Assembly: GCA_016927835.1 (NCBI GenBank) | Contig: JAFGMA010000399.1 | Span: 62,001-126,000 of the forward strand | DNA from: Candidatus Zhuqueibacterota bacterium | GTDB taxonomy: Bacteria > Zhuqueibacterota > Zhuqueibacteria > Thermofontimicrobiales > Sulfurfontimicrobiaceae | DNA length: 64,000 bases | Direction: 5' to 3' | Part shown: piece by piece, positions 34,784-57,474 of the stretch | How the letters are laid out: each line of letters starts with the position of its first letter | Numbering within the stretch: the stretch's first letter is position 1 | Notes under the pieces: model-generated | Told to the model about the DNA's origin: nothing | Databases searched by the model: none | The model's input: the letters and a program-made list of their open reading frames with translations, nothing else | Translations under genes and position numbers: made by a program

Positions 34784-35782
34784 TTATTCTACAATCTTCT
34801 CAATATTATATTCTTTGATATCTCTTGCATGCGTGTAAATTATCATTTCTCCGATGAGACCGATGGAAATCATTTGGATGCCGATGACCAGAAATAATGC
34901 ACCCACCAGAAGCAACGGTCTGCCGGCGATGGGTCCCATGCCCAGAATGCGATATACGAGCAAATAGGCATTTGTACCGATCCCGACAATCGCAAACAGC
35001 ATCCCGACAAATCCCAAAAAATGAATCGGCTTTTTGGAATATTTGGTCAGAAAGATCACTGTCAGAATATCGAGCAATCGCTGTAAATATTCACCCAGGT
35101 ATCTCGATTGTCTGAAGAGCCCTTTCAACTGCTCGATCTTCTCTTCGGTCACTTTGTAGCCCTGGCGATGTGCCAGCATCGGCAAAAAGCGGTTCAGGGA
35201 GCCATAAATGGGCACATTTTCCAGCACTTCACGCTTCGCAACCAAAATGCCGCTATTAATATCATGCAAATTCAAGCCGCCCATTTTTCGAGTCAGCCAG
35301 TTGAAAAGCCTGGAAATAATTTGATTGAGCGAGGAATCTGCGCGTGGAAAGCGCCATCCGACGACCATATCATAGCCGTCATCGAGTTTCTGGCAAAGCT
35401 TCAGAATGCCTTCCATCGCCACCCGAACACGACTCGTGACATAGACGATCGTATCTCCCGCAGCGCGTTTGACGCCGGCGTCGAAAGTGGATGCTTCACC
35501 GAACGAAGATCTCATTTTGATTATCTTCACGCGATCATCCGTATCCGCGATTTCGTTCAAAAGCGAATAGGTTGCGTCGGTGCTCCCATCATCTACATAA
35601 ATAATTTCGTAACGAGTGTTGCTGTTTCGCATTGACGTACTTAAAGATGCGTGCAATTCTTTGATACTCGTTTCACAATTATAAAGTGAAATAATTAATG
35701 AAATTAATCCTGCACGATCGACGGTTGCGGTGTCCCCGACAGCGTCAGGAATGCGTTTTTTATTGACGGCGTTTGAAGTCAT
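34784..35782 (-). CDS. GT2-like glycosyltransferase with altered DXD motif
   Basis: 332 aa. It aligns along its length with the neighbour at 35841-36791: YVDDGSTDAT, KIIKMRSSFGEAS, LDDGYDMVVGWR, LHDINSG, KKPIHFLGFVG and two C-terminal membrane segments. Where the neighbour has AMDGDLQNDP, this protein has YVTSRVRVAM (~residues 110-119), so the metal/nucleotide-sugar DXD is missing. It may be inactive, regulatory, or use a different donor geometry. AGG lies 9 nt before the ATG. Expression looks intact: no stop or frameshift. Confidence 0.82.
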   Translation of the reverse strand: MTSNAVNKKRIPDAVGDTATVDRAGLISLIISLYNCETSIKELHASLSTSMRNSNTRYEIIYVDDGSTDATYSLLNEIADTDDRVKIIKMRSSFGEASTFDAGVKRAAGDTIVYVTSRVRVAMEGILKLCQKLDDGYDMVVGWRFPRADSSLNQIISRLFNWLTRKMGGLNLHDINSGILVAKREVLENVPIYGSLNRFLPMLAHRQGYKVTEEKIEQLKGLFRQSRYLGEYLQRLLDILTVIFLTKYSKKPIHFLGFVGMLFAIVGIGTNAYLLVYRILGMGPIAGRPLLLVGALFLVIGIQMISIGLIGEMIIYTHARDIKEYNIEKIVE

Positions 35783-35840
35783 TTTATCAACCTTTTCAAC
35801 TAGTTTTTAAGTATCCGATATCAACCTGCCCGATTCGGAC

Positions 35841-36791
35841 TTATTTTGATTCAGACAGATAAATCTGCTTTCTGTCCCCTGTTTCGACAACCAGGTTTGC
35901 CAACAAGCCTATCGCCAGAAATCCGAAACCCGAGCCTGTGAACAGGAACACCAGGGTTAACAGCACATTCAATTCATCCAGCGTGGCATTTGCATTTTCG
36001 AACAGCATGCAGAGCATACCAGCGCCAAAAATAGCCGCAGCAAACAGACAGAATACGCCTATAATTCCGAAGAAATGTATCGGCTTTTTCAAATGTTTAA
36101 TAAACAGATTGAGAGTCGTCAAATCCATTATTACCCGGAAGGTGCGGGTGATATTGTATTTTGAAACACCGAATTTCCGCGCATGATGCTTGACGACCAG
36201 CTCGGTTATCCGGGCACCTTCAATTTTTGCCAATGCCGGGATGAAACGATGCAGCTCTCCATACAGCTTAACGCGCTTGATGATTTCTTTTCGAAACGCT
36301 TTCAATGAGCAGCCGGTATCATGTAAGTCGACTTCGGTGACCGAACAGATCAATTTATTGGCAATTTTCGAGGGTATTTTTCGCATTACCATCTTGTCTT
36401 TTCGATTCTTGCGCCAGCCGGCAACCACATCATAGCCTTCGTCGAGTTTTTGCAGCATTCTCGGGATGTCTTCAGGATCATTTTGCAAGTCGCCATCCAT
36501 TGCCACAACAATGTCACCCTTGGCATATTCGAAGCCGGCAGCCATCGCAGCCGATTGCCCGAAATTACCGCGAAATTTAATGATTTTCAATTGAGGATGC
36601 GCCTGGTGCAATTCTTCGAGTATCTCAAAAGTACGGTCGGTACTGCCATCATCAACCAGAATGACTTCGTACGGTTTGCCCAAATCGTCCAGAACCTTAC
36701 AGATTCGATCCTGAAGAAGTGCTACATTTTCTTCTTCATTGTAAACCGGCACGACCACGGAAATTTCTGTTTTTTCGTTTGTTTGGTTCAT
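35841..36791 (-). CDS. GT2 glycosyltransferase, GtrB/DPM-like with two membrane helices
   Basis: The track start at 36896 lies inside the next gene. The ATG at 36791 overlaps that gene's TGA stop (ATGA) and starts at the family's natural N-terminus (MNQTNEKTEISVVVPVYNEE), 316 aa. DXD motif MDGDLQNDPED near residue 97; LVDDGSTD and KFRGNFGQSAAMAAGF are typical. Two hydrophobic segments near the C-terminus anchor it. It likely loads hexose or GlcNAc on polyprenyl phosphate for one of the GT39-type proteins in the locus. Confidence 0.86.
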   Translation of the reverse strand: MNQTNEKTEISVVVPVYNEEENVALLQDRICKVLDDLGKPYEVILVDDGSTDRTFEILEELHQAHPQLKIIKFRGNFGQSAAMAAGFEYAKGDIVVAMDGDLQNDPEDIPRMLQKLDEGYDVVAGWRKNRKDKMVMRKIPSKIANKLICSVTEVDLHDTGCSLKAFRKEIIKRVKLYGELHRFIPALAKIEGARITELVVKHHARKFGVSKYNITRTFRVIMDLTTLNLFIKHLKKPIHFFGIIGVFCLFAAAIFGAGMLCMLFENANATLDELNVLLTLVFLFTGSGFGFLAIGLLANLVVETGDRKQIYLSESK

Positions 36792-37354
36792 TTCGTTGCC
36801 AGATTTGCTTTCCTTGTTTTCGAATATTTTTTGTATAAGCTCACCGCCCCCCAGATTGGCGCGAGAATCAGGATTTCTCCCATCACTGTTCGCCAATTAT
36901 GTGCTTCCGCCAGACCTGCCAGGAAAGAGCGGTTCGTTGCTCCTTTGTAGACATCGGAAAAAATCAGTATCGGCGAAAGCACAGACTCTTCGGAAAAGGG
37001 ATACAGCAACGGCACACCGTAAGGCAAGCTCGTGTCGACGCACAAGTAATCCAGGATCACGTGCGAAAAAACGACTGCTGTACAAACCCAAAACGCTCTT
37101 AAAAACTTGAGGTTAAGTGCAAACTTTGCCAGCAGCCCGGCAATGATCCCTGCCAGCACTGAAAATCCCAGGCTGTGAGTGATGCCGTGATGAAAGCGAT
37201 TGGGTGCGCCGATAAGAATTCCGGGCAAATAATCGATATCGGGCAGGTTTGCAAGGATTAGGAACAGCCAAAATGCAGACCATTTAAACTGCTTATTTTT
37301 CAATCCCGCATAACAGGCAGCGCCCATTAAACTGTGCCCGATCGGTGTTGGCAC
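36788..37354 (-). CDS. YdjM-like membrane-bound metal-dependent hydrolase
   Basis: The GTG at 37354 has AAGGGG 8 nt upstream and gives the family N-terminus (V/M)PTPIGHSLMGAACY, so I prefer it to the track start at 37399 (188 aa). Four to five hydrophobic segments; metal-site-like residues in LANLPDIDYLPGIL, NRFHHGITHSLG and SHVILDYL (His/Asp pattern of PF04307). Activity of the family is uncharacterised; it may act on lipid-linked or phospholipid substrates. Translationally coupled to the GT2 gene after it. Confidence 0.8.
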   Translation of the reverse strand: MPTPIGHSLMGAACYAGLKNKQFKWSAFWLFLILANLPDIDYLPGILIGAPNRFHHGITHSLGFSVLAGIIAGLLAKFALNLKFLRAFWVCTAVVFSHVILDYLCVDTSLPYGVPLLYPFSEESVLSPILIFSDVYKGATNRSFLAGLAEAHNWRTVMGEILILAPIWGAVSLYKKYSKTRKANLATK

Positions 37355-37437
37355 GGCATTTTCCCCTTTTGCTCGATAAAAATACAGCTTCGATTGCAAT
37401 CACCTGCTGGTGGTCTACAACCTGCGATTCACAGCTT

Positions 37438-38622: not shown

Positions 38623-39723
38623 TCAATACTGAGGACCTTGCTTCAACCGGCGTTTTATTTTTGAAATGAAAACCCCTGGCAATGATAATCGCCCTTTGCC
38701 GGACAATCGAAAAATAAAATCGCCGCTCAATCGGTTGATATAATACAGCTTTCCGGCATAGCCATCGCTCGAATACGTTTTCAACAGCCCACCGTAAGCC
38801 GTTTCGTAGCCACATTCTTTGACTAGCCGGCTGGCAATTTTGCCTGTTTCATTCCAGGGAAACGAGAAATGACGAACAGATTTTCCTGTTATCCTGGCAT
38901 CGATTTCCTCGCGGGATTGTACCAGTTCTTCGGCTATCCGCTTTTCCTGCTCTTCTTTTGCTTCATAATAGCCGCTAAAAGAATGCGATTTGCGATAGTC
39001 ATTCACCAGCGTGGTCAGGCGAGATCGCCAGCGCTTGTCACGAAAGAACGCCTCATTGCCATTCTCGCGGACAAACTTGACACACGCCTTTATAAATGAT
39101 TCTTCGGGAAAATAGCGCCGGTGATCGGACAAACGCGACGCATATTCAAAAATCGGCATCCCCAATTGCGGAGGCTGAAAGTAGCGATCTTTCCCATTTT
39201 CAGCCTGCACGGGCAGATTCCATACCTGGTGAGACACAAATCCGGGATAATAAAAATCGATGATTCGGGAAGAAATATTAATTCCGGCATGATGCATCGT
39301 ATGCGACTGGAAATCAACGGCACCCGCCAGATGCATTTCGTTAGCCTGTTCCCAGGTGATGCTCCCTTTTTCGCCCACCCATGCCGGAATTATGAAAGCC
39401 ACTGCTTTGAAGCCGTATTCCTTGAGCAGGGGGAAAACCACATCGTAGAGATTTCGCAGCCCATCATCGAATGTCAGGACAACTGCTCGTTCCGGAATCT
39501 TCTGCTTTTGCAGATAGACAGATGCATATTCATCCGCAGCCAGTGTGGTGTAGGCGTTCTCTTTCAGATAGCGCAACTGGGCTTCGAACTCCGCTCTGTC
39601 AATGCGGTGATAGCTGAACACCGGAATCCCCGGCGACATTTTTGATCTTGTCACAAAATCCGGATACTCGCTCCTGCGGAGAATTCCGAAAATAGAAGAT
39701 ATTTCTTTAAATTGAGATTTCAT
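38623..39723 (-). CDS. Polysaccharide deacetylase (NodB family)
   Basis: 366 aa. VVLTFDDGL (motif 1, residues ~80-88) and FQSHTMHHAG (motif 2, His pair near 141-145) are the metal-binding motifs of carbohydrate esterase family 4; HFSFPWNETG is the later aromatic/Arg motif. No signal peptide or membrane segment is clear, so it may act in the cytoplasm on lipid-linked or nucleotide sugars, as in exosortase-type EPS loci. An inserted helical stretch (~residues 215-285) makes it longer than a minimal NodB domain. Likely removes N- or O-acetyl groups from a repeat-unit sugar. Confidence 0.85.
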   Translation of the reverse strand: MKSQFKEISSIFGILRRSEYPDFVTRSKMSPGIPVFSYHRIDRAEFEAQLRYLKENAYTTLAADEYASVYLQKQKIPERAVVLTFDDGLRNLYDVVFPLLKEYGFKAVAFIIPAWVGEKGSITWEQANEMHLAGAVDFQSHTMHHAGINISSRIIDFYYPGFVSHQVWNLPVQAENGKDRYFQPPQLGMPIFEYASRLSDHRRYFPEESFIKACVKFVRENGNEAFFRDKRWRSRLTTLVNDYRKSHSFSGYYEAKEEQEKRIAEELVQSREEIDARITGKSVRHFSFPWNETGKIASRLVKECGYETAYGGLLKTYSSDGYAGKLYYINRLSGDFIFRLSGKGRLSLPGVFISKIKRRLKQGPQY

Positions 39724-39755: not shown

Positions 39756-41645
39756 TCATGGGATTTTATCGAGATGTTCTTGCAGCCACATCTCTAGCAC
39801 TGCCAACGCCCAGATCCTGTGGGAATAATTTTGACGTTTGGAATTATGCTGTTTGATCATCTTTTGCACAAAATCAGGATTGAAGAATCCTCGTTTTTTT
39901 AAGACATCCTCAGACAGATATGTCATGATGAATTCTTTTATCTGGTCATTTGACCGCATCCAGTTTTTCAAGGGGATGCTGTGTCCGAGTTTATCCTTGC
40001 GATGCACAATTTCGTCGGGCAACACCGTTTCCATCGTTTTTTTAAAGATATATTTGGTTTCGGACATGCCTCTGAATTTCATCCCGGATGGCAACGTGGC
40101 ACAATAGTCGATCAAACGGTGATCTAGCAATGGATATCGCGGTTCGAGCGCGAACTTATTGTTGAGATTCATGCGTCGCAAATAAAATCCGACGACGGTG
40201 TGATAATCGCTGTAGAGCGAGTTGCTAAGTCCGTCGCGACCATCGGCTTCATTATTGAATTGCAGGATATCCTCATACGGGTGAAATCCATTCAACATCT
40301 GGCTTATTTCTCTGGTGTATAATCGCTGCAATTCGTTTAGATCGTAATAGATGCGCCAGCGATGAGAAAGCAGTTCTTTTGGAAATCGATAGCTGGCGGC
40401 AAAGCGCTTGGCTTTCACGATAAAATTTTTCTTCTTATCGGAATCCGGCAGCAATCGAGCGATGCCCAACACCGGGGTGCGAATGAATCCCGGAATTTTA
40501 TCCACGACCGCCGCCATTTTATCGGCTTCGTACACCGGATGCCCCGCAAAAAGCTCATCTCCGCCATCACCGGTGAAAATGTACGGTACGAATTGGCTCG
40601 CCTGCTTTCCGAGAATATAGGTTGCAACATTGATCCCCACATCGCAGAACGGCTCATCCATGTATTTCACCATTTGAGCCGTTTCGAGCACATCTTCAAC
40701 CCGGTATTCGGTTTCGTGATGGCTGGTGTTATAATGCTTCGCCATAAATCGCGCGTAGTGCGATTCATCAAATGATTCTCCCCGGCAGCGATAAGAAAAG
40801 GTATTGAGCTGGCGTTGAAGAAATTCAGTTGTCAGCGCGACCACAGTACTGGAGTCCATGCCGCCACTGAGGAAGGTTCCCAGGTTCTCCCCGGATTCGA
40901 TCCGGCATTTCACAGCATCCCGGAGCAGTTCAATCAACCGTTCGCCGGCTTCTTTTTCACTCTTTTCTGCGATACGAGCGAATGTGAGCGTCCAATACTT
41001 TTTGAATGCCACATCGCCATTTCGTAATATCATTAAATACGCAGGTCGCAATTTGTGAATTTGCTCGAAAAACGTATGCAATCCGGGATTATACGTAAAT
41101 AGTAAAAATTGGCATAACGCCTGATAATTCAATTCTTTCTTCACCCCGGGGTAACGCAGAATTGACCTGATATTTGAACTGAAAACCAGTCGCTCCTTAT
41201 CCAGGTAATAATACAGCGGCTCGATTCCAACCCTGTCACGACCGAGGATCACGGTATTTCGATTTTTATCCCAAATTGCAAATGCGAATTTGCCATTCAT
41301 TTTCCCGATAAATTTTTGCTCGTGTTGACGATACAGATACAGCACCAGCTTTGCCGGATTTTCATCGATCTCTTTTTTAAATTCATCGGACAGGCTCGAG
41401 ATGAGTTCATCAGTATTGTAGATTCGCCCTTCGAAGATAGTGATAATTGAACCATCCCCAGCACTTGCGGGTTGGTATTTTTCAAAGCATTTTGTTTTGA
41501 ATGTCTGCTTATAAAAGCACCCGAAATTTTCCGAAAGCAGTATTTTCGGAGCGCCTTGACTTATTTGATCGGCTTTGGAAACGCTTTCCAATGCGTTCGG
41601 ATCGACCGAGCACTCCCGTACCCGTTCAAGAACTCCAAATATCAT
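39756..41645 (-). CDS. Asparagine-synthase-like protein lacking the Cys2 nucleophile
   Basis: The track starts at 41678, but AGGAG lies 5 nt before the ATG at 41645, giving MIFGVLERV as N-terminus (629 aa). Asparagine synthetases and related amidotransferases begin MCGI, with Cys2 as glutaminase nucleophile; here residue 2 is Ile. The glutamine-pocket motif NGEIYN reads EGRIYN, and the SDTE segment is gone. The C-terminal synthetase half is intact: LSGGMDSSTVVAL (PP-loop, ~residue 262), FTGDGGDELFAGHP, RYPLLDHRLI. It may use free ammonia, another amine, or ammonia from a partner. It lies 29 nt after the first flippase gene. Confidence 0.85.
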   Translation of the reverse strand: MIFGVLERVRECSVDPNALESVSKADQISQGAPKILLSENFGCFYKQTFKTKCFEKYQPASAGDGSIITIFEGRIYNTDELISSLSDEFKKEIDENPAKLVLYLYRQHEQKFIGKMNGKFAFAIWDKNRNTVILGRDRVGIEPLYYYLDKERLVFSSNIRSILRYPGVKKELNYQALCQFLLFTYNPGLHTFFEQIHKLRPAYLMILRNGDVAFKKYWTLTFARIAEKSEKEAGERLIELLRDAVKCRIESGENLGTFLSGGMDSSTVVALTTEFLQRQLNTFSYRCRGESFDESHYARFMAKHYNTSHHETEYRVEDVLETAQMVKYMDEPFCDVGINVATYILGKQASQFVPYIFTGDGGDELFAGHPVYEADKMAAVVDKIPGFIRTPVLGIARLLPDSDKKKNFIVKAKRFAASYRFPKELLSHRWRIYYDLNELQRLYTREISQMLNGFHPYEDILQFNNEADGRDGLSNSLYSDYHTVVGFYLRRMNLNNKFALEPRYPLLDHRLIDYCATLPSGMKFRGMSETKYIFKKTMETVLPDEIVHRKDKLGHSIPLKNWMRSNDQIKEFIMTYLSEDVLKKRGFFNPDFVQKMIKQHNSKRQNYSHRIWALAVLEMWLQEHLDKIP

Positions 41646-41674
41646 ATTCACTCCTGCAAAAATATCTGAGAGAC

Positions 41675-43156
41675 TCATGTCTCACTGGTTTGAGTACCCT
41701 TGCGCACTAGCGAGAGGACATTTCCCTTCAACGACTCGATCTCCTCTTTCGAAAATGCCTTGAGCACCAAAAGTAAGCCAATAAATAATCCTGTCAAACC
41801 AAGCGCTATCCCGGCTTGCCCCGCGAAGGGGATTGTATAATGCTCATTCAATGAAAAAAATATGCCGAAAATTAGCGCTGCCGCAAGCAGCGGTTTAAAG
41901 CTTATTTTAAACACCGGTATTTTGATATGATGTGTATACAGGTAAATCGAACATAATGTAAAAATGAGCGCTTCGCCCAAAACTGTGGCGACGGCTGAAC
42001 CCTCGTAACCGTAAATGGGTATTACGAGATAGTTCAAGATAATTTTGAATAGCAGCCCCGTGCTGCCCGTAATGAGAATAATTTTTTGTTTATCCACCGA
42101 AATCAGGATCGTATTCAGCATCCAGTTCGGATATTGAAACATAATTCCCAGAAAAAGCGTTTGCAGCGCAAAACTCGCCTGCCAATATTCAGGTTTGTTG
42201 CTAAAAAAAAGCTTCAAACCGAAATCTGAAAATGAAATTCCGAATACAACGATGGGCATTGCCATGATAAACATATACTTGACAGCGCGAATCGCGAGAT
42301 CCTGATGCTTTTTTTTATCGGTCACAAAAAATTCTGACAACCTGGGCAAAACAACCAGAAACAAAATTGTCGGCAGAATCGTGATGCCTTCATAAATTCG
42401 AAACGCGGCGCTGTATAATCCCACATCATGCAGCCCCTTCATATCCGTCAACATCCAGATATCGATGTAGGAAAAAATAGTGAGAATCACAAAGAACATG
42501 CCCAGGGGTAACGCTTCGATTTGCAACTTTTTCAGGAACCTGAAATCGAATTTGAATCGAACCCGCCCGATTTTCCAGTTCAGGATTCCAAGCGTGATCA
42601 AAAAGTCAACTGCGCGTACCGCGGTAAAACAGAGGATAAAGGAATAAAGCTCCTTGGAAATATGCAAGACAATCAGACAGAAAACGAGCAAACCCGTGCG
42701 TTCCAGCAATACCAGCCCGGTATCGATTGCAAACAGATTATGCGCCTGGAAAAATACGCGAAATGTGTACTTCAGTGATTTTAAAAATGCTGATATCGTC
42801 AGCAGATAGATCGCATAAACGAGCCTGGCTTCATACCCTTTGAGATATACGACGATCATCATCACGCAATAAATTATTGCACACAGGATCAATTTCCACG
42901 ATAAAAGATTTCCGATGTACATTTCGGAAAGGTTGCGATCGCGCGAAACATTTCGCACGCTCAGGTCACGCAGTCCCAGATCGGTAAACATTTCAAAGAC
43001 CGTTGCAATCGCCAGAGCCGAATTGAACGTCCCGTAGTCATCGATTGCAAGTGCACGCCCAACCGCAATTAAAAGTACGAATAGAAAAAAACTACTGAAA
43101 GTGGTAATACTTGAAAAAACAACATTTTTAACCATATTGTATTTTTTCGTCGCCAC
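41675..43156 (-). CDS. wzx: Wzx-type polysaccharide flippase (first copy in locus)
   Basis: About 494 aa, 12-14 hydrophobic segments of the MOP superfamily (AIDDYGTFNSALAIATVFEM, FTDLGLRDLSVRNVSRDR). Flips undecaprenyl-linked repeat units. The ATG at 43165 abuts AAGG; the GTG at 43156, 8 nt from AAGGA, is better placed and used here. Not a close relative of the second flippase at 17035-18534, so they are unlikely to be recent duplicates and may serve different glycans. Confidence 0.84.
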   Translation of the reverse strand: MATKKYNMVKNVVFSSITTFSSFFLFVLLIAVGRALAIDDYGTFNSALAIATVFEMFTDLGLRDLSVRNVSRDRNLSEMYIGNLLSWKLILCAIIYCVMMIVVYLKGYEARLVYAIYLLTISAFLKSLKYTFRVFFQAHNLFAIDTGLVLLERTGLLVFCLIVLHISKELYSFILCFTAVRAVDFLITLGILNWKIGRVRFKFDFRFLKKLQIEALPLGMFFVILTIFSYIDIWMLTDMKGLHDVGLYSAAFRIYEGITILPTILFLVVLPRLSEFFVTDKKKHQDLAIRAVKYMFIMAMPIVVFGISFSDFGLKLFFSNKPEYWQASFALQTLFLGIMFQYPNWMLNTILISVDKQKIILITGSTGLLFKIILNYLVIPIYGYEGSAVATVLGEALIFTLCSIYLYTHHIKIPVFKISFKPLLAAALIFGIFFSLNEHYTIPFAGQAGIALGLTGLFIGLLLVLKAFSKEEIESLKGNVLSLVRKGTQTSET

Positions 43157-43171
43157 CAAGGTCATCCTTGC

Positions 43172-44299
43172 TTAAAATTCCGCTTCGATTCTATCAGCCA
43201 GTCGCATAATATTGGTGCGCCAGGAATAGTGTTTTTTCAATCGTTCAAAATCGACATCGCTCACAAATTTTCCGTCATTCAATGCATCGCAGATTGCATC
43301 CGGAAACGCATCGGTTTCTTTTACACGCAGCAGTTGAAACTCCCTCGGCACCGATCTGGCAGCGATCGGGGTGGCAATGGTGATTTTTCCGACCGCCAGC
43401 GCCTCGATGATCTTTGTCGGCATGCCCCACCCCTGCTGAATGGGCGAAATAATCACATCGGCTCGCTTTAAATATGCGGGCAAATCCTCTACAAATCCGG
43501 TGAATTCCACATTGGGATGCTCGATATCCTGCGGCGGATTCGATCCGACGAACTGAAATTTGGTATCGGGACAACGGGCAATCACCTTTTCCAGGATGCG
43601 CGCCACGGTCACCCGAACCACATCCAGGTTGGTTTGAATATTGTAATTGCCGCAGAAAAGTACAATCTTCGGGTGATTTTCAACCGGATCATAATACGGA
43701 TTGAAAATCGTTTCGTCGAAGCCTTGCGGAATGACCACCATTTTTTCTCGTGTCGTCCAACGGGTATAATACTCCGCATCGTTTTCAGAAATTGGAACCA
43801 GCAGCTTCGATTTTTTAACGCCGTTTTTTTCCGCCCAGTAAACATAAGGAATGAAAACGTAGCGCCGCGGATCGGCTTTGGCTTTACCCCAATACTGGAG
43901 ATATTCGAGATTATGCGAGCAATAAATGAACGGGAGCCTGAATTTCTTCGATAGCTTCAACCCATAGACGGCACTCAAGCCGTAATCGCATAAAATTGCA
44001 TGGTATTTATTTTTCTGCAATAGCTCTGTTGCCGACTGCATCAATCCTGAGCTGAAAATGAAATAATCTTTTTGAGAAAACGGGATCACGATTTTTTCGC
44101 GGACGCCTTTCACTTTTGAAGCAAATTTCCGGGAAAGCTCCGGATTCGGTGGATGCCCGGAGCCATCGATGTAAACCAAATCGAGGGTGAAACGCTCTGC
44201 CAGGTTATTCACAAATTCTGCGCCACGCACACCTGCGCCGGTGAGGGGAACATGTGGGTCATATACGGATAAATATAGTAAGCTTTTTTTCATCATCAT
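43172..44299 (-). CDS. GT4-family glycosyltransferase
   Basis: 375 aa. SVYDPHVPLTGAGVRGAEFVNNLAERF at the N-terminus resembles the GT4 subgroup found in exosortase-linked EPS loci. Donor half: VLFCGNYNIQTNLD and IQQGWGMPTKIIEALAVGKIT (E-x7-E region near residue 295). Three tandem ATGs make the exact start uncertain by two codons. The gap to the flippase gene is 6-15 nt, so the two are probably co-translated. Confidence 0.85.
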   Translation of the reverse strand: MMMKKSLLYLSVYDPHVPLTGAGVRGAEFVNNLAERFTLDLVYIDGSGHPPNPELSRKFASKVKGVREKIVIPFSQKDYFIFSSGLMQSATELLQKNKYHAILCDYGLSAVYGLKLSKKFRLPFIYCSHNLEYLQYWGKAKADPRRYVFIPYVYWAEKNGVKKSKLLVPISENDAEYYTRWTTREKMVVIPQGFDETIFNPYYDPVENHPKIVLFCGNYNIQTNLDVVRVTVARILEKVIARCPDTKFQFVGSNPPQDIEHPNVEFTGFVEDLPAYLKRADVIISPIQQGWGMPTKIIEALAVGKITIATPIAARSVPREFQLLRVKETDAFPDAICDALNDGKFVSDVDFERLKKHYSWRTNIMRLADRIEAEF

Positions 44300-44341: not shown

Positions 44342-45148
44342 TTACTCCGGGGCATGCTCAGTTGCCCGGACTGTCGTCTTGCTTTTCTCATTCGCTGCAC
44401 CATCGAGCCGGCTTCGGAGCACTTTCGCGGGAATTCCGACCGCGATAGAATAGGCGGGTATATCTTTGCTGACAACCGCCGATGTGCCGATCACCGAATC
44501 CCTGCCAATACGCACGCCATCCATCACCTTTACGCCAGCGCCAAGCCACAGGTTATCCTCCATGACAATGCCCGCTGAGGAGCGCTCCTGCTCCAACGGT
44601 GAGACATCCAGCCGATCCATGTGATGGGTTCCGCCGATAATATAGCAGTATGCGGCTATTAAATTGTTTTTGCCCAGACTCACATTGCTCGCTGAAAATA
44701 TTTCGCAATTGAATCCCATATTGACATTTTCATCCAGATGGATATCACCATTTTTGCAACTCAAAATGGTATTGCGCCCGATGAAAACTCCGTTACCAAT
44801 GAAAAGCCCTTGATTGGATTCGCCCTTTGCATCAAGAACGCAGTTATCATCGATCACGACGTTATCGCCGAGAAAAATTTTATTCGGGTGGCGTAGAACC
44901 ACGTTTTGCCCAAAGGTAACATTGCGTCCGCATTTTCCGAGCAGTTTTGGATAGAGTTTCATTCGCAGCACCAAACCCAGGGCACCCGGAATCCAGCTCG
45001 AAATCATCATTATCATTTCGTATTTAAACAGCTTCCACAATCCTCGCTGTCCCACGACCAGATCCTGATATTTTTGCAGCGCTGATTTTTTCTGATCGAA
45101 CAGTTCCTTTTGGGCTTCATGATGCTTATGATTTTTGTCTTTACTCAT
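44342..45148 (-). CDS. Left-handed beta-helix acyltransferase
   Basis: 268 aa. Hexapeptide repeats ([LIV]GxNxx) run from ~residue 75 to ~235: FGQNVVL, LGDNVVID, IGNGVFIGRN, LDENVNMGFN, LGKNNLI. The C-terminal block IGRDSVIGTSAVVSKDIPAYSIAVGIPAKVL is classic for CoA-dependent O-acetyltransferases (WcaF/CysE-like). About 60 residues of hydrophobic N-terminal sequence may contact the membrane or lipid-linked glycan. Its ATG overlaps the SDR stop by 1 nt (TAATG). Likely acetylates a repeat-unit sugar; donor and acceptor are inferred. Confidence 0.86.
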   Translation of the reverse strand: MSKDKNHKHHEAQKELFDQKKSALQKYQDLVVGQRGLWKLFKYEMIMMISSWIPGALGLVLRMKLYPKLLGKCGRNVTFGQNVVLRHPNKIFLGDNVVIDDNCVLDAKGESNQGLFIGNGVFIGRNTILSCKNGDIHLDENVNMGFNCEIFSASNVSLGKNNLIAAYCYIIGGTHHMDRLDVSPLEQERSSAGIVMEDNLWLGAGVKVMDGVRIGRDSVIGTSAVVSKDIPAYSIAVGIPAKVLRSRLDGAANEKSKTTVRATEHAPE

Positions 45149-46137
45149 TACTTTAGTAATCCTTTTTCAAGATACCATTTTGCAGTTCTTCGAATGCCTT
45201 CTTTCAAAGACACCCTGGGCTGATACCCTAAAACTCGCTTTGCTTTCGAGATATCGAATGCCCTGTCTTTCATAAAGAAATCGACGCGTCTTCTGTAAAT
45301 CGGTGGTTGAATTCCGAGTGGGCGACAAACCAGTTCACACAAGGCTCCTGCCAGCCAAACCGGAAAAACCGGGATATGACCTTTTTTTACGGAGACTTGC
45401 AGCGCATCGGCGATCAGCGCCACAATTTCGTTGAGGGTAACAAACTCCTCACCACCCAGCGTGAACAGCCCGTACGCGGCTTCTTTCTTTTCTCCGCACA
45501 AAATAATTCCGTCCACCAGATCATCAATATATGTCCAGTGATACAAAACTTTTCCGCTGCCGATCATGCGAAACTTGCCGCTGTAAATCCATTTGAATAT
45601 TTTGAGGAAACGCGTATCACCGGGACCATAAATCCCCACAGGGCGAAAAATCGCACCGGGATATTGGTTTTGTTGATAAAAGTCCTTGACCATCAATTCC
45701 CCTTGCATCTTCGACTCCTGGTAAACATCGCCGGGGTTGTAAGGTGCATCTTCCGTGGCGGGCGGATCGGCAATTTCGCCCTGAACGCCGACTGTGCTGC
45801 AATGCACAAAATGGGGCAAGCCGGTTTCGAATGCTGCTTCGAGGACATTTCGTGTACCATCGACATTCACGTCGTAAAAATGCTTATGCGGCACATTCTC
45901 TTCTCTGAAAGCTGCGGCGATGTGATACACACAGTCGACGCCTTTCATCGCCGGCTTCATGCTTGCCTTATCGCTTATATCACCATAAATTATTTCGGCA
46001 CCGATTCGTCTCAGATTTTCTAATTTGCTGGTTTGCCTGGCGAGTGCTTTAACGTGATATCCCCGTTCGCACAAAATTTCACACAGTCTGCCGCCGGTAA
46101 ATCCGGTACCTCCGGTTACGAATACCTTTTTATTCAT
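45148..46137 (-). CDS. NAD-dependent epimerase/dehydratase (extended SDR)
   Basis: 329 aa. TGGTGFTGGRL (NAD-binding), HCSTVG and VYQESKMQGE (Tyr-x3-Lys catalytic pair) are present; the C-terminal half (PVFPVWLAGALCELVCRPLG) resembles 3-beta-HSD/dihydroflavonol-reductase-like members rather than typical nucleotide-sugar epimerases. It could reduce or epimerise a nucleotide sugar or an isoprenoid-linked substrate; no precise reaction can be read. Coupled by a 1-nt overlap to the acyltransferase and preceded by the radical SAM gene. Confidence 0.8.
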   Translation of the reverse strand: MNKKVFVTGGTGFTGGRLCEILCERGYHVKALARQTSKLENLRRIGAEIIYGDISDKASMKPAMKGVDCVYHIAAAFREENVPHKHFYDVNVDGTRNVLEAAFETGLPHFVHCSTVGVQGEIADPPATEDAPYNPGDVYQESKMQGELMVKDFYQQNQYPGAIFRPVGIYGPGDTRFLKIFKWIYSGKFRMIGSGKVLYHWTYIDDLVDGIILCGEKKEAAYGLFTLGGEEFVTLNEIVALIADALQVSVKKGHIPVFPVWLAGALCELVCRPLGIQPPIYRRRVDFFMKDRAFDISKAKRVLGYQPRVSLKEGIRRTAKWYLEKGLLK

Positions 46138-46185: not shown

Positions 46186-47193
46186 CTACTCCTTCAGATA
46201 TTTCAAACTTGGCGCCGGAATCCCCATAATTTTCTTTCGGCGCGGGGTATCGCAGGTATTGCATGGCGAATAATCGCGAATATTCAAATCGAGGTGGCGC
46301 TGCCTCAGTTCGACCGTTTCAGCGTTATTGAAAATTTCCACCAGGCTTTTTTCTTTGGTATCGCCCAGGATAATCTCAGCCATATAATCATGCGGGCATG
46401 GTCCGACACGACCATCCCAGAGAATCACCTGAGCATGCCAGGGAAATGTACAGGCTACGAGGTCTTCATCGGCAAAGGTATCAATGGAGACATAGCCAGC
46501 CCAGTTATGCGGCTTTTTGACAATCAACCGATCCAAATCCCGCATCATTTCCAGAAATTTCTGTTTATCCTCATTCCTGAATTCGAATCCTTCAAGGTCT
46601 TCCATCACTTCCATCACCGTTTTAGGTGTGGCGCGCTTCATTTCTTTTTTCAGATCGAGGAATCGAACAATATTTCTGGTAGTTTTATCGAAATTGGCAT
46701 TCACCCGGATCTTTTCATACACATCGCTGGTATATCCGTCGAAGGAAAAAGAAATCAGCGCCAACCCGGATTCGATAAGTTCACGGCTCCTGCGCTCGGT
46801 TAAAAGCGTACCATTTGTATGCAGCTTGACCGGTATGCCATTTTTAGTCGCATATTCGATCATCTCCGGCAGCCGCGGATGCAAATTAGACTCACCCCGA
46901 TGATGGATATTCATGTCATAGGCGAAATAGCGTGCCTCGTCAATGATTTTTTTGAAAAGATCAAAGTCCATGAAACCCAAATCTTCTTTTTTAAAATCCT
47001 TGTTCGGGCACATCACACACGCCAGATTGCATTTATTCGTTGGTTCAATCCATAGCCGATAAGGCTTATATTTGACTTTTGAATTACGACTGAAACGATA
47101 ATTCCATAAAACCTGAACCAATCTCTTCCCCGCCCACAGCGTTCTGAATTTTCGCTGCGGGATAAAGCCATTTGTATTGCTCGTGTCACTCAT
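46186..47193 (-). CDS. Radical SAM enzyme with SPASM-like C-terminus
   Basis: The track start is TTG (47199); ATG at 47193, 8 nt from GGAG, is preferred (335 aa). NKCNLACVMCPN holds the C-x3-C-x2-C [4Fe-4S]/SAM motif (~residues 53-60). IHHRGESNLHPRLPE and LHTNGTLL follow in the TIM barrel. C-terminal cysteines (CTFPW...GPCPHDY...SPCNTC) form a SPASM-type auxiliary cluster site. Such proteins occur in polysaccharide and amidotransferase loci without known chemistry. It lies 35-41 nt after the canonical asparagine synthase gene, which suggests a shared pathway. Confidence 0.85.
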   Translation of the reverse strand: MSDTSNTNGFIPQRKFRTLWAGKRLVQVLWNYRFSRNSKVKYKPYRLWIEPTNKCNLACVMCPNKDFKKEDLGFMDFDLFKKIIDEARYFAYDMNIHHRGESNLHPRLPEMIEYATKNGIPVKLHTNGTLLTERRSRELIESGLALISFSFDGYTSDVYEKIRVNANFDKTTRNIVRFLDLKKEMKRATPKTVMEVMEDLEGFEFRNEDKQKFLEMMRDLDRLIVKKPHNWAGYVSIDTFADEDLVACTFPWHAQVILWDGRVGPCPHDYMAEIILGDTKEKSLVEIFNNAETVELRQRHLDLNIRDYSPCNTCDTPRRKKIMGIPAPSLKYLKE

Positions 47194-47234
47194 CACCAAC
47201 TCTCCTTACGTACAAATGGAATCACACCCACTCG

Positions 47235-49133
47235 TCAAACATTTCGAATATAGACATCGTACCAGATACCGAACATCATCAGCGCCCAGAGACGATGACT
47301 GTGATTTTGTTTATTATTGAGATGTTCCGATTTAAGCTGCTCGATGTAATCTGAGTTGAAAAATCCCTCCGCCTTGATATTCGATGGCGAGAGCACCTCG
47401 TTCATCATCGGCTTCAAATCGGTTTTTAGCCAGTTTTTAATCGGGATGCTGAATCCCTCTTTATTGCGATAAATGATTTCGTCCGGCAGAATATCGGACA
47501 TCGCTTTTTTCAAAATATATTTGGTCTTTTGATGCGACAAGCCTGCCAGTTTAAGATGCGCAGGAACGGTCGCTAAAAATTCCACCACGCGATGATCGAG
47601 AAAGGGTACCCGCGCTTCGAGTGACGTCGCCATACTCATGCGATCCACTTTCACGAGAATGTCATCCACCATATAGGTTTTAATATCCACATATTGCTGC
47701 CGGGACAGATCATCGCTGGCGGGTGCGGTTTGGAAATAATTCCGAATAAAATCGTGCGCATCATAATCAGCAATCGCATCCCGGAACACGGGGGAATAAA
47801 GTTGCTCTCTGTTAAGCGCTGTCATAAACATCATCCATCGCGTATGCTGCAGATCGGACGGCAGTTGCATTCCCTCCACAAAACGTTTGGCACGATTGAT
47901 CAAACCCTTCTTCTTCTGGGTTGGCGGAATTTTAGCCAGCAATTTACCAATCATATACTCTCGGATGAATTTGGGAATTCGCTCGTATCCGACACCGATT
48001 TTCTGAGCGATATATGGATCATAGCCTGCGAGCAATTCATCTCCGCCATCGCCCGAGAGTACCACAGTCACATATTCCCGCGCCATTTTGGATACCAGGT
48101 AAGTCGGAAACATTGAAAAATCACCGAATGGTTCATCGACATAATTGCGAATCAACTTTTCGGTCAAATCGATGGCATTGGGCTCAATTGTAAATTCGTG
48201 ATGCTCGGTTTGGAATTTCCTGGCGATAACTCTCGCATATTCCAGTTCATTATATGTTGAGTCCTTGAATCCGATAGAAAACGTTTTCACCGGTTGATCA
48301 AGATGTTTTGCCATAAAGGCAACAATCGTACTCGAATCCAGACCACCGCTGAGAAATGCGCCCAGCGGCACGTCGCTCATGAGTCGAATTTTTACCGCAT
48401 CGCCCAGAATCGTCCTGAATTTTTCGCATATCTGCTCTTCGGAAAGACCGCTTTCTTTGAATTCGAACTTCCAGTAATTCGAAATCCGTAATCGACTATT
48501 CTCACATAGCAGCGAATGCGCAGGCGGCAATTTAAAAATTCCCTCAAAAATACTCAGGGGTGCGGGAACGTATTCGTAAGTCAGAAAATTATCAAGCGCT
48601 TTCAGATTCACGCTCCTGGGAACATTTTTCAATTGCAGAATTGATTTGAGTTCTGAACCGAAAATCAGGCGCTTTCCATCGGAATAATAATACAACGGTT
48701 TAATTCCCATGCGATCTCTTGCCAGGAAAAGCCGATTCTTTTTTTCATCCCATATTGCGAATCCGAACATCCCGTTCAATTTTTTTGGACAGTCTGCGCC
48801 GTATTCCTCGTACGCATGCAGGATGGCTTCGGTATCGCTTTTGGTTCTGAAGCGATGTCCCTTTTTAATCAGTTCCTTCTTGATTTCTTTATGATTGTAA
48901 ATTTCGCCGTTGAAGACAATCCACACCGTCCCATCTTCATTTGAAATCGGTTGTTGTCCGGTTGACAGATCGATGATGCTCAAACGCCGCATTCCGATGC
49001 CCACGTTATTTTTTACATAAACACCCTCGTCATCCGGTCCGCGATGCGTGATCACGCTGCACATTCGGCGCACATCCGATTCCGGTACATGGTTTTCCTG
49101 TTTGAAATACACAACCCCGCAAATTCCGCACAT
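47235..49133 (-). CDS. asnB: Glutamine-dependent asparagine synthase-like amidotransferase
   Basis: 632 aa with canonical features: MCGICG (Cys2 nucleophile), MRRLSIIDL, VFNGEIYN, KSDTEAI in the glutaminase half; FLSGGLDSSTIVAF (PP-loop near residue 263) and VVLSGDGGDELLAGYD in the synthetase half. RBS GGAG 7 nt upstream. In polysaccharide loci such enzymes (for example WbpS-like) amidate uronic acids. ugd and a UDP-GlcA epimerase in the same locus fit that reading; housekeeping asparagine synthesis is the alternative. Confidence 0.88.
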   Translation of the reverse strand: MCGICGVVYFKQENHVPESDVRRMCSVITHRGPDDEGVYVKNNVGIGMRRLSIIDLSTGQQPISNEDGTVWIVFNGEIYNHKEIKKELIKKGHRFRTKSDTEAILHAYEEYGADCPKKLNGMFGFAIWDEKKNRLFLARDRMGIKPLYYYSDGKRLIFGSELKSILQLKNVPRSVNLKALDNFLTYEYVPAPLSIFEGIFKLPPAHSLLCENSRLRISNYWKFEFKESGLSEEQICEKFRTILGDAVKIRLMSDVPLGAFLSGGLDSSTIVAFMAKHLDQPVKTFSIGFKDSTYNELEYARVIARKFQTEHHEFTIEPNAIDLTEKLIRNYVDEPFGDFSMFPTYLVSKMAREYVTVVLSGDGGDELLAGYDPYIAQKIGVGYERIPKFIREYMIGKLLAKIPPTQKKKGLINRAKRFVEGMQLPSDLQHTRWMMFMTALNREQLYSPVFRDAIADYDAHDFIRNYFQTAPASDDLSRQQYVDIKTYMVDDILVKVDRMSMATSLEARVPFLDHRVVEFLATVPAHLKLAGLSHQKTKYILKKAMSDILPDEIIYRNKEGFSIPIKNWLKTDLKPMMNEVLSPSNIKAEGFFNSDYIEQLKSEHLNNKQNHSHRLWALMMFGIWYDVYIRNV

Positions 49134-49150: not shown

Positions 49151-50329
49151 TCAGTCCAGCTTATCCATTATAAAATCATAAATTGTCTTCGTTTTTTCCA
49201 GGTACACACGATAGCTATACTTTTCCTCCGCCAGTTTCTGGGCGTTTCGGATAATTTCTTGAGTCAATTCTCTATCCCGTATCGCTTTGAGAACGCCTTC
49301 AGCAAATGCTTCGGGGGTACAATCAGTCAGAATTGAGACCGAATCATCCAGTACCTGGGTGTGCGTCAGATGCCGGGTAGCGACAATGGGTTTTCCCGAC
49401 CGCAGATAAGAATATATTTTCAGTGGCGTATTATTGCCTTCGATGCGCGGTGACACCAATACATCCGCCAGACCTTCATAGTCGGGAACCTCCTGCGGCT
49501 GCACTGTGCCGGTAAATACGAAATGGTCGGTAAGGTTCAGATCATCCACCATTTTTCTGTATTTTTTCACCTGGTCATCATTTCCGCCGACCAATATGAT
49601 TTTAGTTGCCGCATTCTGGCGAATGATGAATTCACTGCTCTTTATCAGCAAATCCAGACCCTGGTAAGCTACAAATGTGCCGGCGTAAACCAAAATGGTG
49701 TGATTATTCAGATTAAAACGATTTTTGATTTCCTCTGGTGAAACCGGCTTATGTTCGAATACTTCCCCATTATCCGCAACGTTCTCAATGAGCATGTTGA
49801 ATTTATCGGGAAAAAGCCGTTCGACATAATGATACAACTCAGGGCAAATGGTAATCACTGCGTCCGCGGATTCAATTGTCATTCGTTCCAGTTTTTCGAA
49901 TGTGCTGATTAACGAGCGCAAGGTTGTAAATTTGCAATTCGTAAGCTGCTGAGGCAGACTTGAATGCATATCGTACAAATGGCGCATTTTTCGCTTTTTC
50001 AGCAGCATCGGCGCCATGAAGCCGGCTTCCTCATGAGTGTGCAGCAGGTCGTAATGATTTTGCTTCACCAGTTTTCGGGCTTTCATAAGGATGAAAAAAT
50101 CGAGCACTGCTTTGGGCAGCGATGGTCCGACTGCAATTTTTTTGATGAGCGGAATTTGGGGTATTCGGTGAATTTTTACATTTTCAATTGGGACATCCTG
50201 CCCGATATGATAGGTTAAAAGATCTACTTCATGTCCCAGACGGGAGATCGCTCGCAAGCGGTGCAGAACACTAAACGGAGTACCCCGTGGAGAAAACCAC
50301 GGTTGAGGTGCAATCATCAATACTTTCAT
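49151..50329 (-). CDS. GT4-family glycosyltransferase
   Basis: 392 aa. MIAPQPWFSPRGTPFSVLHRL begins the acceptor domain (GTPFSV loop). The donor half has VYAGTFVAYQGLDLL and IEGNNTPLKIYSYLRSGKPIVATRH, where the last Glu of the usual E-x7-E is Ser (KIYSYL), a variation I recall from other GT4 enzymes with this loop. It starts at ATG 50329 after GGATAGCC. The gene is separated from ugd by a gap with the third palindromic repeat, so it may begin a transcription sub-unit. Confidence 0.85.
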   Translation of the reverse strand: MKVLMIAPQPWFSPRGTPFSVLHRLRAISRLGHEVDLLTYHIGQDVPIENVKIHRIPQIPLIKKIAVGPSLPKAVLDFFILMKARKLVKQNHYDLLHTHEEAGFMAPMLLKKRKMRHLYDMHSSLPQQLTNCKFTTLRSLISTFEKLERMTIESADAVITICPELYHYVERLFPDKFNMLIENVADNGEVFEHKPVSPEEIKNRFNLNNHTILVYAGTFVAYQGLDLLIKSSEFIIRQNAATKIILVGGNDDQVKKYRKMVDDLNLTDHFVFTGTVQPQEVPDYEGLADVLVSPRIEGNNTPLKIYSYLRSGKPIVATRHLTHTQVLDDSVSILTDCTPEAFAEGVLKAIRDRELTQEIIRNAQKLAEEKYSYRVYLEKTKTIYDFIMDKLD

Positions 50330-50785: not shown

Positions 50786-52084
50786 TCATCGCCCGACACA
50801 TACATATTTGAATCCGTGCTCTTTCATTTTTTCGGGTTCATAAATATTTCTCAAATCGATGACGATTGGTTCTTTCAGCAAGCTCTTGATTTTCGCCAGA
50901 TCAAGGCTTCTGAATTGGTTCCATTCGGTAATGAATATCAATGCATCGGCATCTTTGGCAACCTCGTAAGTATCTTTGCAGTACGTTATCTTCGGCATTA
51001 CTTTTTTCGATTCTTCCATCGCGACCGGATCGAACGCGAAGACTTCCGCGCCACCTTTTAGCAAGCCATTAATGATCGTAATTGATGGTGCTTCACGCAT
51101 ATCATCGGTGTTCGGTTTGAAAGACAATCCCAACACACCCAGTCGCTTACCTTTGAGGTTTCCCACAGCCTTTTTAATTTTTTCCAACATGGCAAGGTGT
51201 TGCCGCTTATTAATTTCGACAGCGGCATGGACGATTTTAAACTCGTACCCTTCCTTTTCAGCAATTTGCAGCAACGCCCGTGTATCTTTTGGAAAACATG
51301 AGCCGCCATACCCTGGTCCCGGATGCAGGAATTTGCCCCCAATCCGCTTGTCGAGTCCCATGCCTTTGGCAACGTGATGGACATCGGCGCCAACCCGTTC
51401 ACAAATTGTGGCGATTTCATTGATATACGAAATTTTGGTTGCCAGAAAGGCGTTTGAAGCGTATTTTATCAATTCCGCGCTTTCGAGATTTGTAACAACA
51501 ATCGGGGTTTCGATCAAGTAAAGCGGGGAGTACAAATCTTTCATAATGGCTTTTGCTTCATCGGTTTCGGCGCCGATTACCACGCGATCCGGTCGCATAA
51601 AATCTTCGATTGCCGAGCCTTCGCGCAAGAATTCAGGATTGGATGCCACTGCAAACGGAATTTTTTCCTCTATTGATTCTTCGATGATTTTTTTGATCCA
51701 CCTGCCAGAGCCAACCGGAACGGTACTTTTGTTAACGATCACTTTATAGCCGTTGAGGTGACTGGCAATGCTTTTGGCAACTGCTTCGACGTGCTGCAAA
51801 TCTGCGGAGCCATCTTCCATCGGGGGCGTCCCAACAGCGATAAAAATCACAAGCGATTTTTCAGTTGCTGTTTTGATATCAGTTGTGAAGGTGAGGCGTC
51901 CTTCTTTTACGTTTTTTGCTACCAAAACATCTAATCCCGGCTCATAAATCGGAAGAATTCCTTTATTGAGATTAGCAATCTTTTTTTCATCTTTGTCAAC
52001 GCAAATGACATCATTTCCAAATTCAGCAAAACAGGTTCCGGTAACCAGACCGACGTATCCTGTTCCTACAATGCTAATATGCAT
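50786..52084 (-). CDS. ugd: UDP-glucose 6-dehydrogenase
   Basis: 432 aa, the usual length. SIVGTGYVGLVTGTCFAEFG is the NAD-binding start; KSTVPVGSG, NPEFLREGSAIEDF and GPGYGGSCFPKDTRAL (catalytic Cys near residue 261) are diagnostic. It oxidises UDP-Glc twice to UDP-GlcA, the donor for uronic-acid sugars. RBS AGGAGG 5 nt before ATG. Together with the UDP-GlcA 4-epimerase-like gene it makes UDP-GlcA and UDP-GalA available. Tyrosine kinases of the Wzc type phosphorylate Ugd in some species, and wzc is in the same locus. Confidence 0.95.
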   Translation of the reverse strand: MHISIVGTGYVGLVTGTCFAEFGNDVICVDKDEKKIANLNKGILPIYEPGLDVLVAKNVKEGRLTFTTDIKTATEKSLVIFIAVGTPPMEDGSADLQHVEAVAKSIASHLNGYKVIVNKSTVPVGSGRWIKKIIEESIEEKIPFAVASNPEFLREGSAIEDFMRPDRVVIGAETDEAKAIMKDLYSPLYLIETPIVVTNLESAELIKYASNAFLATKISYINEIATICERVGADVHHVAKGMGLDKRIGGKFLHPGPGYGGSCFPKDTRALLQIAEKEGYEFKIVHAAVEINKRQHLAMLEKIKKAVGNLKGKRLGVLGLSFKPNTDDMREAPSITIINGLLKGGAEVFAFDPVAMEESKKVMPKITYCKDTYEVAKDADALIFITEWNQFRSLDLAKIKSLLKEPIVIDLRNIYEPEKMKEHGFKYVCVGR

Positions 52085-53615: not shown

Positions 53616-53621
53616 CGACAC

Positions 53622-54070: not shown

Positions 54071-55033
54071 TTATGCCCGGGAAGCATGCTCCTTGAACCA
54101 CTTTACAAAATCGGCGATCCCCTGCTCCATATTCATCGAAGGCGCATATCCCAATTCTGCCCTTGCCTTTTGGATGTCCGCAAAGGTTATATCCACATCA
54201 CCGGGTTGCATCGGCAGGCGCTCGATAGTTGCATCAGTGCCAACATTCCGCGCGATTAATTGGATTAGCTCTCGTAACTGGATCGTCTTTGATTCGCCCA
54301 GGTTATAAATATTGTAGCCGCTGCATTTTTCAATCGCAAGATTAATCCCCTGGATAATATCAGAAATGAATGTATAGTCCCGTTTCGAAGAGCCATCGCC
54401 ATACATCGGGATTTTTTCACCATCATGAATGAGCCTGGTAAAGCGGTGGATTGCCATATCGGGTCGTTGCCTGGGACCGTAAACCGTAAAGAACCTCAAG
54501 CAAGTAATCGAAATCTGGTACAAATGATGATAAGTATAGCAAATTATTTCTCCCATCCTCTTGGTAGCCGCATACGGAGAAATTGGGTGATCAACGAAAT
54601 CGTCTTCGGCAAAAGGTACCTTTTTATTATTTCCGTATACGGACGAAGAGGATGCGAAAATGAATTTCTCAATGTGATGTTGTTTCGCCATTTCCAGCAA
54701 ATTCATCGTGCCTTTGATATTGACATCCTGGTACAACATGGGCTCTTTCAATGAAGGACGAACACCGGCACGAGCCGCCAGGTGGACGATACAATCAAAT
54801 TTATCAGCCCTAAAAATTTTCTCGAGCAAATCCGTATCCCGAATATCACCTTCAAAGAGCTTGAAATCCGTATGGTTTTGGAATTGACTGATATTATTCC
54901 ATTTAATTGAAGGTGTGTAGTAGTTGTTAAAATCATCAAGGCAAGATACATGATTGCCGTGCTTGAGCAGCGATTCGATCAGATGTGAGCCAATAAACCC
55001 CGCACCACCCGTAACAAGTAGTTTCATCATCAT
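54071..55033 (-). CDS. UDP-glucuronate 4-epimerase-like SDR
   Basis: 320 aa. VTGGAGFIGSHLIESL (NAD-binding), SSSVYG, YAATKRMGE (Tyr-x3-Lys), LRFFTVYGPRQRPDMAIHRF and LPMQPGDVDITFADI are the signatures of LspL/Cap1J-type UDP-GlcA 4-epimerases. It would interconvert UDP-GlcA and UDP-GalA, drawing on Ugd in the same locus. Three tandem ATGs leave the start uncertain by two codons. It lies 41 nt after wzc. Confidence 0.88.
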   Translation of the reverse strand: MMMKLLVTGGAGFIGSHLIESLLKHGNHVSCLDDFNNYYTPSIKWNNISQFQNHTDFKLFEGDIRDTDLLEKIFRADKFDCIVHLAARAGVRPSLKEPMLYQDVNIKGTMNLLEMAKQHHIEKFIFASSSSVYGNNKKVPFAEDDFVDHPISPYAATKRMGEIICYTYHHLYQISITCLRFFTVYGPRQRPDMAIHRFTRLIHDGEKIPMYGDGSSKRDYTFISDIIQGINLAIEKCSGYNIYNLGESKTIQLRELIQLIARNVGTDATIERLPMQPGDVDITFADIQKARAELGYAPSMNMEQGIADFVKWFKEHASRA

Positions 55034-57420: not shown

Positions 57421-57474
57421 CAATACTCTCCGATAATATGATTAATGAATGTGACTTATTTTCTGTTCTCCGAA

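Follow-up and report, generated by a model that had tools for sequence, protein, structure and literature searches.

Asparagine-synthetase-like proteins without a glutaminase nucleophile in bacterial exopolysaccharide loci and their possible role in amide ligation

Described relatives of the asparagine synthetase fold

Uronamide synthases of the WbpS type are found in Wzx/Wzy polysaccharide loci, often beside wzx (PMC7468200; PMC3684757), and WbpS, which is related to the NCBIfam model TIGR03108, makes uronamides (PMC7468200). Exopolysaccharide clusters of Zoogloea, Rubrivivax and Thauera carry several asnB-type genes, one of them beside a flippase, and insertions affect aggregation (PMC9012009; PMC3684757). 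Furthermore, exopolysaccharides with galacturonate amide-linked to amino acids are known (PMC4663550), and in C. jejuni the capsular glucuronate is amidated with serinol phosphate or ethanolamine phosphate via the C-terminal domain of Cj1438 (PMC12409886).

The window, i.e. the whole stretch of 64,000 nucleotides analyzed here, is taken up by a single large exopolysaccharide cluster of the Wzx/Wzy type, which includes UDP-glucuronate genes. It encodes two asparagine-synthetase-like proteins, an altered one (ALT) and its canonical Cys2 paralogue (CAN) (Table 1). ALT thus has the locus type and the flippase neighbor of the WbpS-type enzymes, and several asnB-type genes share the cluster, as in Zoogloea, Rubrivivax and Thauera. 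TIGR03108 (XrtA/PEP-CTERM amidotransferase) was also the top NCBIfam model of ALT, which has the two-domain fold in common with these amidotransferases and with the uronamide synthases WbpS/WbqG/PGN_1234, but the score was 386.4 bits against a cut-off of 816.9 and the sequence begins with MIFG instead of Cys2. While TIGR03108/WbpS enzymes are glutamine-dependent, and Cys2 is kept in the members from Vibrio, Photobacterium, Sphingomonas and a P. aeruginosa plasmid, ALT lacks both Cys2 and the glutamine site; the WbpS-like protein in this locus is CAN.

Members of the AsnB fold without the cysteine are already known, namely beta-lactam and carbapenam synthetases and lasso cyclases, and ALT is a further variant. 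The N-terminal domain of the beta-lactam and carbapenam synthetases has no Cys nucleophile, and the same is true of ALT. The Tyr of the catalytic Tyr-Glu dyad of beta-lactam synthetase, which we take to correspond to the position of AsnB Glu348, is however missing: the residue there is Asp360 in all 41 ALT orthologues, and Asp also in the ordinary paralogue. Both synthetases (1jgt, 1q15) combine an adenylating half with an amine other than glutamine ammonia, a functional analogy to ALT, although they belong to antibiotic loci and ALT to a polysaccharide locus. The ALT model matched their structures with E-values of 2e-19 to 3e-22 at about 16% identity. Lasso-peptide cyclases (NF033535) are AsnB-like as well and offer a similar analogy, since the amine of the substrate replaces glutamine ammonia as the nucleophile. 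ALT reached only 236.3 bits with NF033535 (cut-off 525), and neither a lasso precursor nor a leader peptidase was seen among the window genes examined. The structures closest to the ALT model were TsnB9, AsnB, ASNS, beta-lactam synthetase and carbapenam synthetase. The best of these, the hydroxyamidotransferase TsnB9 (7ylz; TM 0.74, 19% identity), is an AsnB homolog with an unusual nitrogen donor, but it begins with MCG and so keeps the N-terminal nucleophile, unlike ALT.

The gene, its locus and its distribution

The initial annotation had placed the ALT start at MIFGV, with Ile at position 2, and the reading frame together with a well-placed Shine-Dalgarno sequence bears this out (Table 1). 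An upstream start restoring Cys2 was sought and does not exist: the sole other plausible start, an ATG at 41678 that overlaps the flippase stop, gives the N-terminus MSLSDIFAGVNMIFG, again without Cys2. No Cys2 N-terminus was found for ALT by looking for ATG, GTG or TTG followed by Cys; two other matches of this kind are irrelevant, one being internal (locus L038) and the other lying 70 codons upstream, where the sequence is not conserved (L060).

Table 1. Features of the window, with positions counted from its first letter
Feature	Position	Strand	Remarks
Wza-like	57475-58170		
Wzz/tyrosine kinase	55075-57423		
Nucleotide-sugar epimerase	54071-55033		
Initiating glycosylphosphotransferase	52158-53621		
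UDP-glucose 6-dehydrogenase-like (Ugd)	50786-52084	-	UDP-glucuronate source
Glycosyltransferase family 4	49151-50329	-	Conserved directly upstream of CAN
CAN, Cys2 paralogue	47235-49133	-	MCGICG; WbpS/XrtA-amidotransferase-like
Radical SAM/SPASM protein	46186-47199	-	Variable accessory gene
NAD-dependent epimerase/dehydratase	45148-46137	-	Conserved between CAN and ALT
Hexapeptide acyltransferase	44342-45148	-	Conserved between CAN and ALT
Glycosyltransferase family 4	43172-44299	-	
Wzx-type flippase	41675-43165	-	Directly upstream of ALT; 4-nt overlap with alternative start
Alternative in-frame upstream start, ATG at 41678	41646-41678	-	Adds MSLSDIFAGVN, without Cys2
Shine-Dalgarno AGGAG of MIFGV start	41651-41655	-	5 nt upstream of start
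ALT, glutaminase-dead asparagine-synthetase-like protein	39756-41645	-	629 aa, N-terminus MIFGVLERV
EGRIYN, residues 72-77, for NGEIYN	41415-41432	-	AsnB Asn74 lost, Gly75 kept
PP-loop SGGMDSS, residues 260-266	40848-40868	-	ATP site; S, G, G, D, S, S invariant in 41/41
GDGGDELFAGHPVY, residues 359-372	40530-40571	-	GHPVY diagnostic of ALT clade (41/41); canonical copies GYDTY
Arg490-Arg491	40173-40178	-	Arg491 (41/41) at tunnel residue Ala388 (E. coli AsnB)/Ala404 (human ASNS)
RKDKLGH, residues 549-555	39981-40001	-	Lys552 (41/41) equals catalytic Lys449 of AsnB
Polysaccharide deacetylase	38623-39723	-	Adjoins ALT
YdjM membrane protein	36788-37399	-	Part of ALT-YdjM-GT2-GT2 block
Two membrane GT2 glycosyltransferases	34784-36896 (35841-36896, 34784-35782)	-	Conserved downstream of ALT

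The names Wza, Wzz, epimerase (54071-55033) and Ugd are our assumption from reading the sequences and from general family knowledge. Downstream of Ugd, the gene order is GT4, CAN, radical SAM, epimerase, acyltransferase, GT4, flippase, ALT, deacetylase, GT2, YdjM and further GT2s, and the canonical paralogue that had been placed some 6 kb away is the MCGICG protein encoded 5.6 kb upstream on the same strand. Two different flippase-like genes (17035-18534 and 41675-43165) and, as read by eye, a Wzy-like polymerase (18506-19873) are present, and the cluster may make more than one glycan.

Whole-genome searches in one phylum (82 genomes) identified ALT in 45 genomes, with profile scores of at least 621 bits against at most 562 bits for all other proteins. 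We read 41 orthologues, one per genome, whose N-termini were MIFG, MIWG, MIYG, MIAG, MISG, MIVG, MFNG, LFG (with a TTG start), MFSG, MLIG, MYIG, MLLG, MMHG/MHGS and MWCG, the last of these, found in two orthologues, having a Cys at position 3. The starts were chosen by us, and in several cases are fixed by a stop codon directly before MI.G. Cys2 occurred in none of the 41, while an MCG N-terminus was found in all 27 complete CAN copies from the same loci and in another 14 Cys2-type copies from other genomes, a contrast far beyond chance that agrees with the nucleophile loss proposed earlier and leaves no room for Cys2 dominating the homolog clade. In a tree of 97 proteins (quick search, midpoint root), the 41 ALT sequences formed a single group with an SH-aLRT support of 100, separate from CAN, all other paralogues and the references. 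Because the ALT sequences make up one clade and none has Cys2, the residue was most likely lost before the sampled members of the phylum diverged. A GTDB contig scan with a single ALT sequence gave one distant relative only, and only distant matches came from tblastn on plasmids (best 31% identity) and from viral contigs (best 28%). All plasmid copies inspected begin with MCG.

Co-occurrence with a Cys2 paralogue, which the initial annotation had proposed as a check, was regular: CAN was found in 42 of the 45 ALT genomes, and the remaining three are fragmented assemblies (70-82% complete). In all 34 contigs with both genes, CAN lies 5' of ALT on the same strand, at a distance of 6-28 kb. About 25 genomes have CAN without ALT, and although some such loci end at contig edges, the absence is real in genomes G029 and G035, where the acyltransferase is followed by YdjM with no ALT between them. 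Since CAN accompanies ALT in 42 of 45 genomes and also occurs alone, ALT goes with the CAN-type locus and not vice versa. Two gene blocks are found repeatedly across genomes in unchanged order, namely GT4-CAN-epimerase-acyltransferase and ALT-YdjM-GT2-GT2.

Other neighbors were less constant. The polysaccharide deacetylase, which near ALT could free an amine, was found in 23 of 40 loci with ALT and in none of 10 loci without it, several of the latter being cut by contig ends. Considering this truncation and the 17 ALT loci that lack the gene, we rejected the deacetylase as an obligatory amine source and regard it as a hint only. In about 12 loci (e.g. L046 3074-3952 and L063 15396-16547), a pyrroline-5-carboxylate reductase-like gene (proC), unexpected in an exopolysaccharide cluster, and an Acetyltransf_6 gene (GNAT, possibly FemAB-like) are situated just downstream of ALT. 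A glycerol-3-phosphate-oxidase-like FAD enzyme (PF01266 and PF16901) is conserved after CAN in 16 of 40 loci with ALT and 7 of 10 loci without (e.g. L180 7477-9141); in the window its place is taken by the radical SAM/SPASM gene, which stands between CAN and the epimerase in only a minority of the related loci.

A second, separate Cys2-less paralogue begins with MSGICG (Cys2 to Ser) and is encoded in tandem directly upstream of a canonical MCGICGK copy, namely in L183 (2313-4232 and 4288-6204, plus strand; G001:C212) and L184 (6031-7920 and 4083-6023, minus strand; G003:C132). HRGPD is retained in this paralogue, but neither the Arg49 motif nor SDTE remains. Pairs of one canonical and one glutaminase-defective copy thus seem to have originated on two or more occasions.

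Glutaminase and synthetase halves

Judged by the residues that characterize class II (Ntn) glutamine amidotransferases, the N-terminal half of ALT has lost its chemistry. Besides the nucleophile (Cys1 in E. coli AsnB numbering), the equivalents of Arg30, Arg49, Asn74 and Asp98 are lost, and Glu76 mostly so, while Gly75 is kept; the columns of Arg49, Asn74 and Asp98 are scattered, with Asp98 retained in 4 of 41 orthologues. The replacement of NGEIYN by EGRIYN was confirmed, and the missing SDTE segment has ENPAK in its place. The GATase_7 fold, on the other hand, is recognizable (Pfam E-value 3e-26; pLDDT mostly above 90 in this part of the model), and the initial annotation needs one correction here, in that the glutaminase domain, though degenerate, is still present and folded. 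ALT scored 259 bits with PF00733 and 92 bits with GATase_7, the latter matching only from residue 56, and CAN 353 and 175 bits, respectively.

Constraint also differs between the halves. In the 27 genomes with both ALT and CAN, the synthetase domain of ALT had a mean pairwise identity of 54%, compared with 32% for the N-terminal domain and 21% for its residues 1-110. The N-terminal domain was the less conserved one in all 351 (non-independent) genome pairs, while CAN showed no such gap (64% N-terminally vs 63%). Among closely related pairs, the dN/dS of ALT was well below 1 in both domains and usually higher N-terminally (e.g. 0.19 vs 0.06); the two domains of CAN were similar in most pairs. 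From the identity gap and the low dN/dS we infer that the ALT gene is functional and no pseudogene, with an N-terminal domain kept mainly for structure.

The ATP-pyrophosphatase half is intact, as proposed from its LSGGMDSS motif. PF00733 matched with 259 bits against a cut-off of 21, SGGxDSS was present in 41/41 orthologues and GDGGDE was invariant. Gly359, Asp360, Asp363, Glu364 and Lys552 were each found in 41/41, as were the equivalents of AsnB Ser234, Gly235, Gly236, Asp238, Ser239, Gly347, Asp351 and Glu352, so that the catalytic Lys (Lys552) and the acidic Mg/PPi residues Asp351 and Glu352 (Asp363 and Glu364 in ALT) are all in place. The addition of AsnB by MAFFT misplaced the columns of Lys376, Asp384 and Lys449, and Lys449 was instead mapped from a pairwise alignment.

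The tunnel residues of human ASNS, including the gate Arg142 and Ala404, have been described (PMC11615228). Mapped onto ALT by a remote alignment (16-19% identity) and not a solved structure, the position of AsnB Met120 has Asn, Lys, Gln and others, that of AsnB Ile143/human Arg142 has Glu in 32/41 (Lys in CAN), and that of AsnB Ala388/human Ala404 has Arg in 41/41 (Val in CAN). The human Asp405 position has Met, Leu or Ile in ALT and Asp in CAN. Arg286-Cys287, Gly337, His369-Pro370-Val371 and His555 (the His of KDKLGH) are invariant in ALT and absent from the paralogue, and the synthetase domain has further invariants of its own, i.e. Asp293-Glu294-Ser295, GHPVY (368-372) and Arg491. The divergence of ALT is therefore not decay, since a new set of positions is kept constant. 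The full-length model, built from 41 sequences, was confident (pLDDT 92.8, pTM 0.93).

The initial annotation had suggested that the pair splits the work or that ALT uses a different amine donor. This is partly supported, by the lost glutaminase chemistry, the intact ATP half and the regular presence of CAN, and the additional replacement of the other glutamine-site residues and of the ammonia-tunnel wall makes a donor other than glutamine more likely than before.

Proposed function

With a modest degree of confidence, ALT is probably an AMP-forming amide ligase with a dead glutaminase, linking the carboxylate of a sugar to an amine from a source other than glutamine. This asparagine-synthetase-fold enzyme, its glutaminase lost at the root of the clade, would activate a carboxylate by adenylation; the likeliest candidate is the carboxylate at C6 of a uronic acid, either in the precursor or in the repeat unit of the polysaccharide. 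An amine not released from glutamine would then attack the acyl-AMP. Less securely, this amine may be a free amino acid, an amino sugar or a similar small amine in the synthetase pocket, and not ammonia, used while bound as in beta-lactam synthetase or lasso cyclases and giving an N-substituted uronamide. CAN would make an ordinary uronamide in the WbpS manner, on the same or another residue. A uronic-acid amide as product is plausible only from the context, i.e. the UDP-glucuronate genes, the WbpS-like paralogue and the deacetylase, and no single neighboring gene marks the acceptor of ALT.

The main rival is an ammonia-dependent uronamide synthetase, forming a plain primary amide from free ammonia or from ammonia supplied by CAN or another glutaminase. 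The intact ATP site and the nearly constant company of a Cys2 paralogue agree with it, but for intermolecular channelling between two AsnB-type chains we know of no precedent. In human ASNS, free ammonia can gain direct access to the synthetase site (PMC11615228), and the loss of the cysteine together with a blocked tunnel can be compatible with an ammonia-dependent enzyme reached in this way. We nevertheless consider this rival rather unlikely, as the invariant bulky or charged residues Arg491, Arg286, His369 and His555 rebuild the synthetase domain and tunnel beyond loss of the donor alone; the bulky, charged tunnel wall and the new invariants favor a bound amine over ammonia. Improbable to a higher degree is a partner or regulatory pseudoenzyme, which would form a heteromer with CAN and position or regulate it without amide catalysis of its own. 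The frequent presence of CAN with ALT, its occurrence alone elsewhere and the fixed gene order and orientation speak for such a partnership. The divergence of ALT and CAN is also correlated (0.88), but shared descent predicts the same and we rejected it as evidence of interaction. The pseudoenzyme is disfavored because no part of the ATP/PPi site, the Lys449 equivalent included, varies among the 41 orthologues, and the synthetase half is the more constrained one.

If ALT were still glutamine-dependent, through another nucleophile or an active site that has moved, this would account for an N-terminal domain that is still folded and under purifying selection. Such an enzyme is very improbable, as position 2 has no conserved Cys, Ser or Thr, the glutamine-binding Arg and Asp are gone, and the first 110 residues are hardly conserved. 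The chance of an annotation artefact, i.e. a wrong start, a frameshift or a decaying pseudogene, we regard as negligible: an upstream ATG exists and the orthologue starts were our choice, yet no start restores Cys2, the frame is open in 40 further genomes, stop codons directly precede MI.G in several orthologues, and purifying selection on ALT is strong.

Returning to the amide ligase, it is possible, though this is a tentative reading, that ALT is an undescribed AsnB-fold carbohydrate amide ligase, encoded beside a glutamine-dependent uronamide synthase, which joins a uronate to an amine other than ammonia (an amino acid or an amino sugar) as the exopolysaccharide is assembled. Its dead domain and blocked tunnel would then serve as scaffold and substrate pocket. 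A literature search of open-licence papers found neither a description of the ALT subfamily nor an asparagine-synthetase-fold enzyme assigned to substituted uronamides. The surface polysaccharides of bacteria are known to include uronic acids decorated with amides, of which the primary ones are accounted for by WbpS-type enzymes. The signature FRC..DES, GHPVY and KDKLGHS, together with the missing Cys2, would let annotation pipelines drop the label 'glutamine-hydrolysing asparagine synthase' from such proteins. A phylum-wide, strictly glutaminase-dead clade beside a glutamine-dependent paralogue is a natural comparison, i.e. the same fold in the same locus with and without glutamine chemistry, and the retention of ALT across the phylum beside CAN in polysaccharide clusters suggests an unusual amide on a cell-surface sugar.
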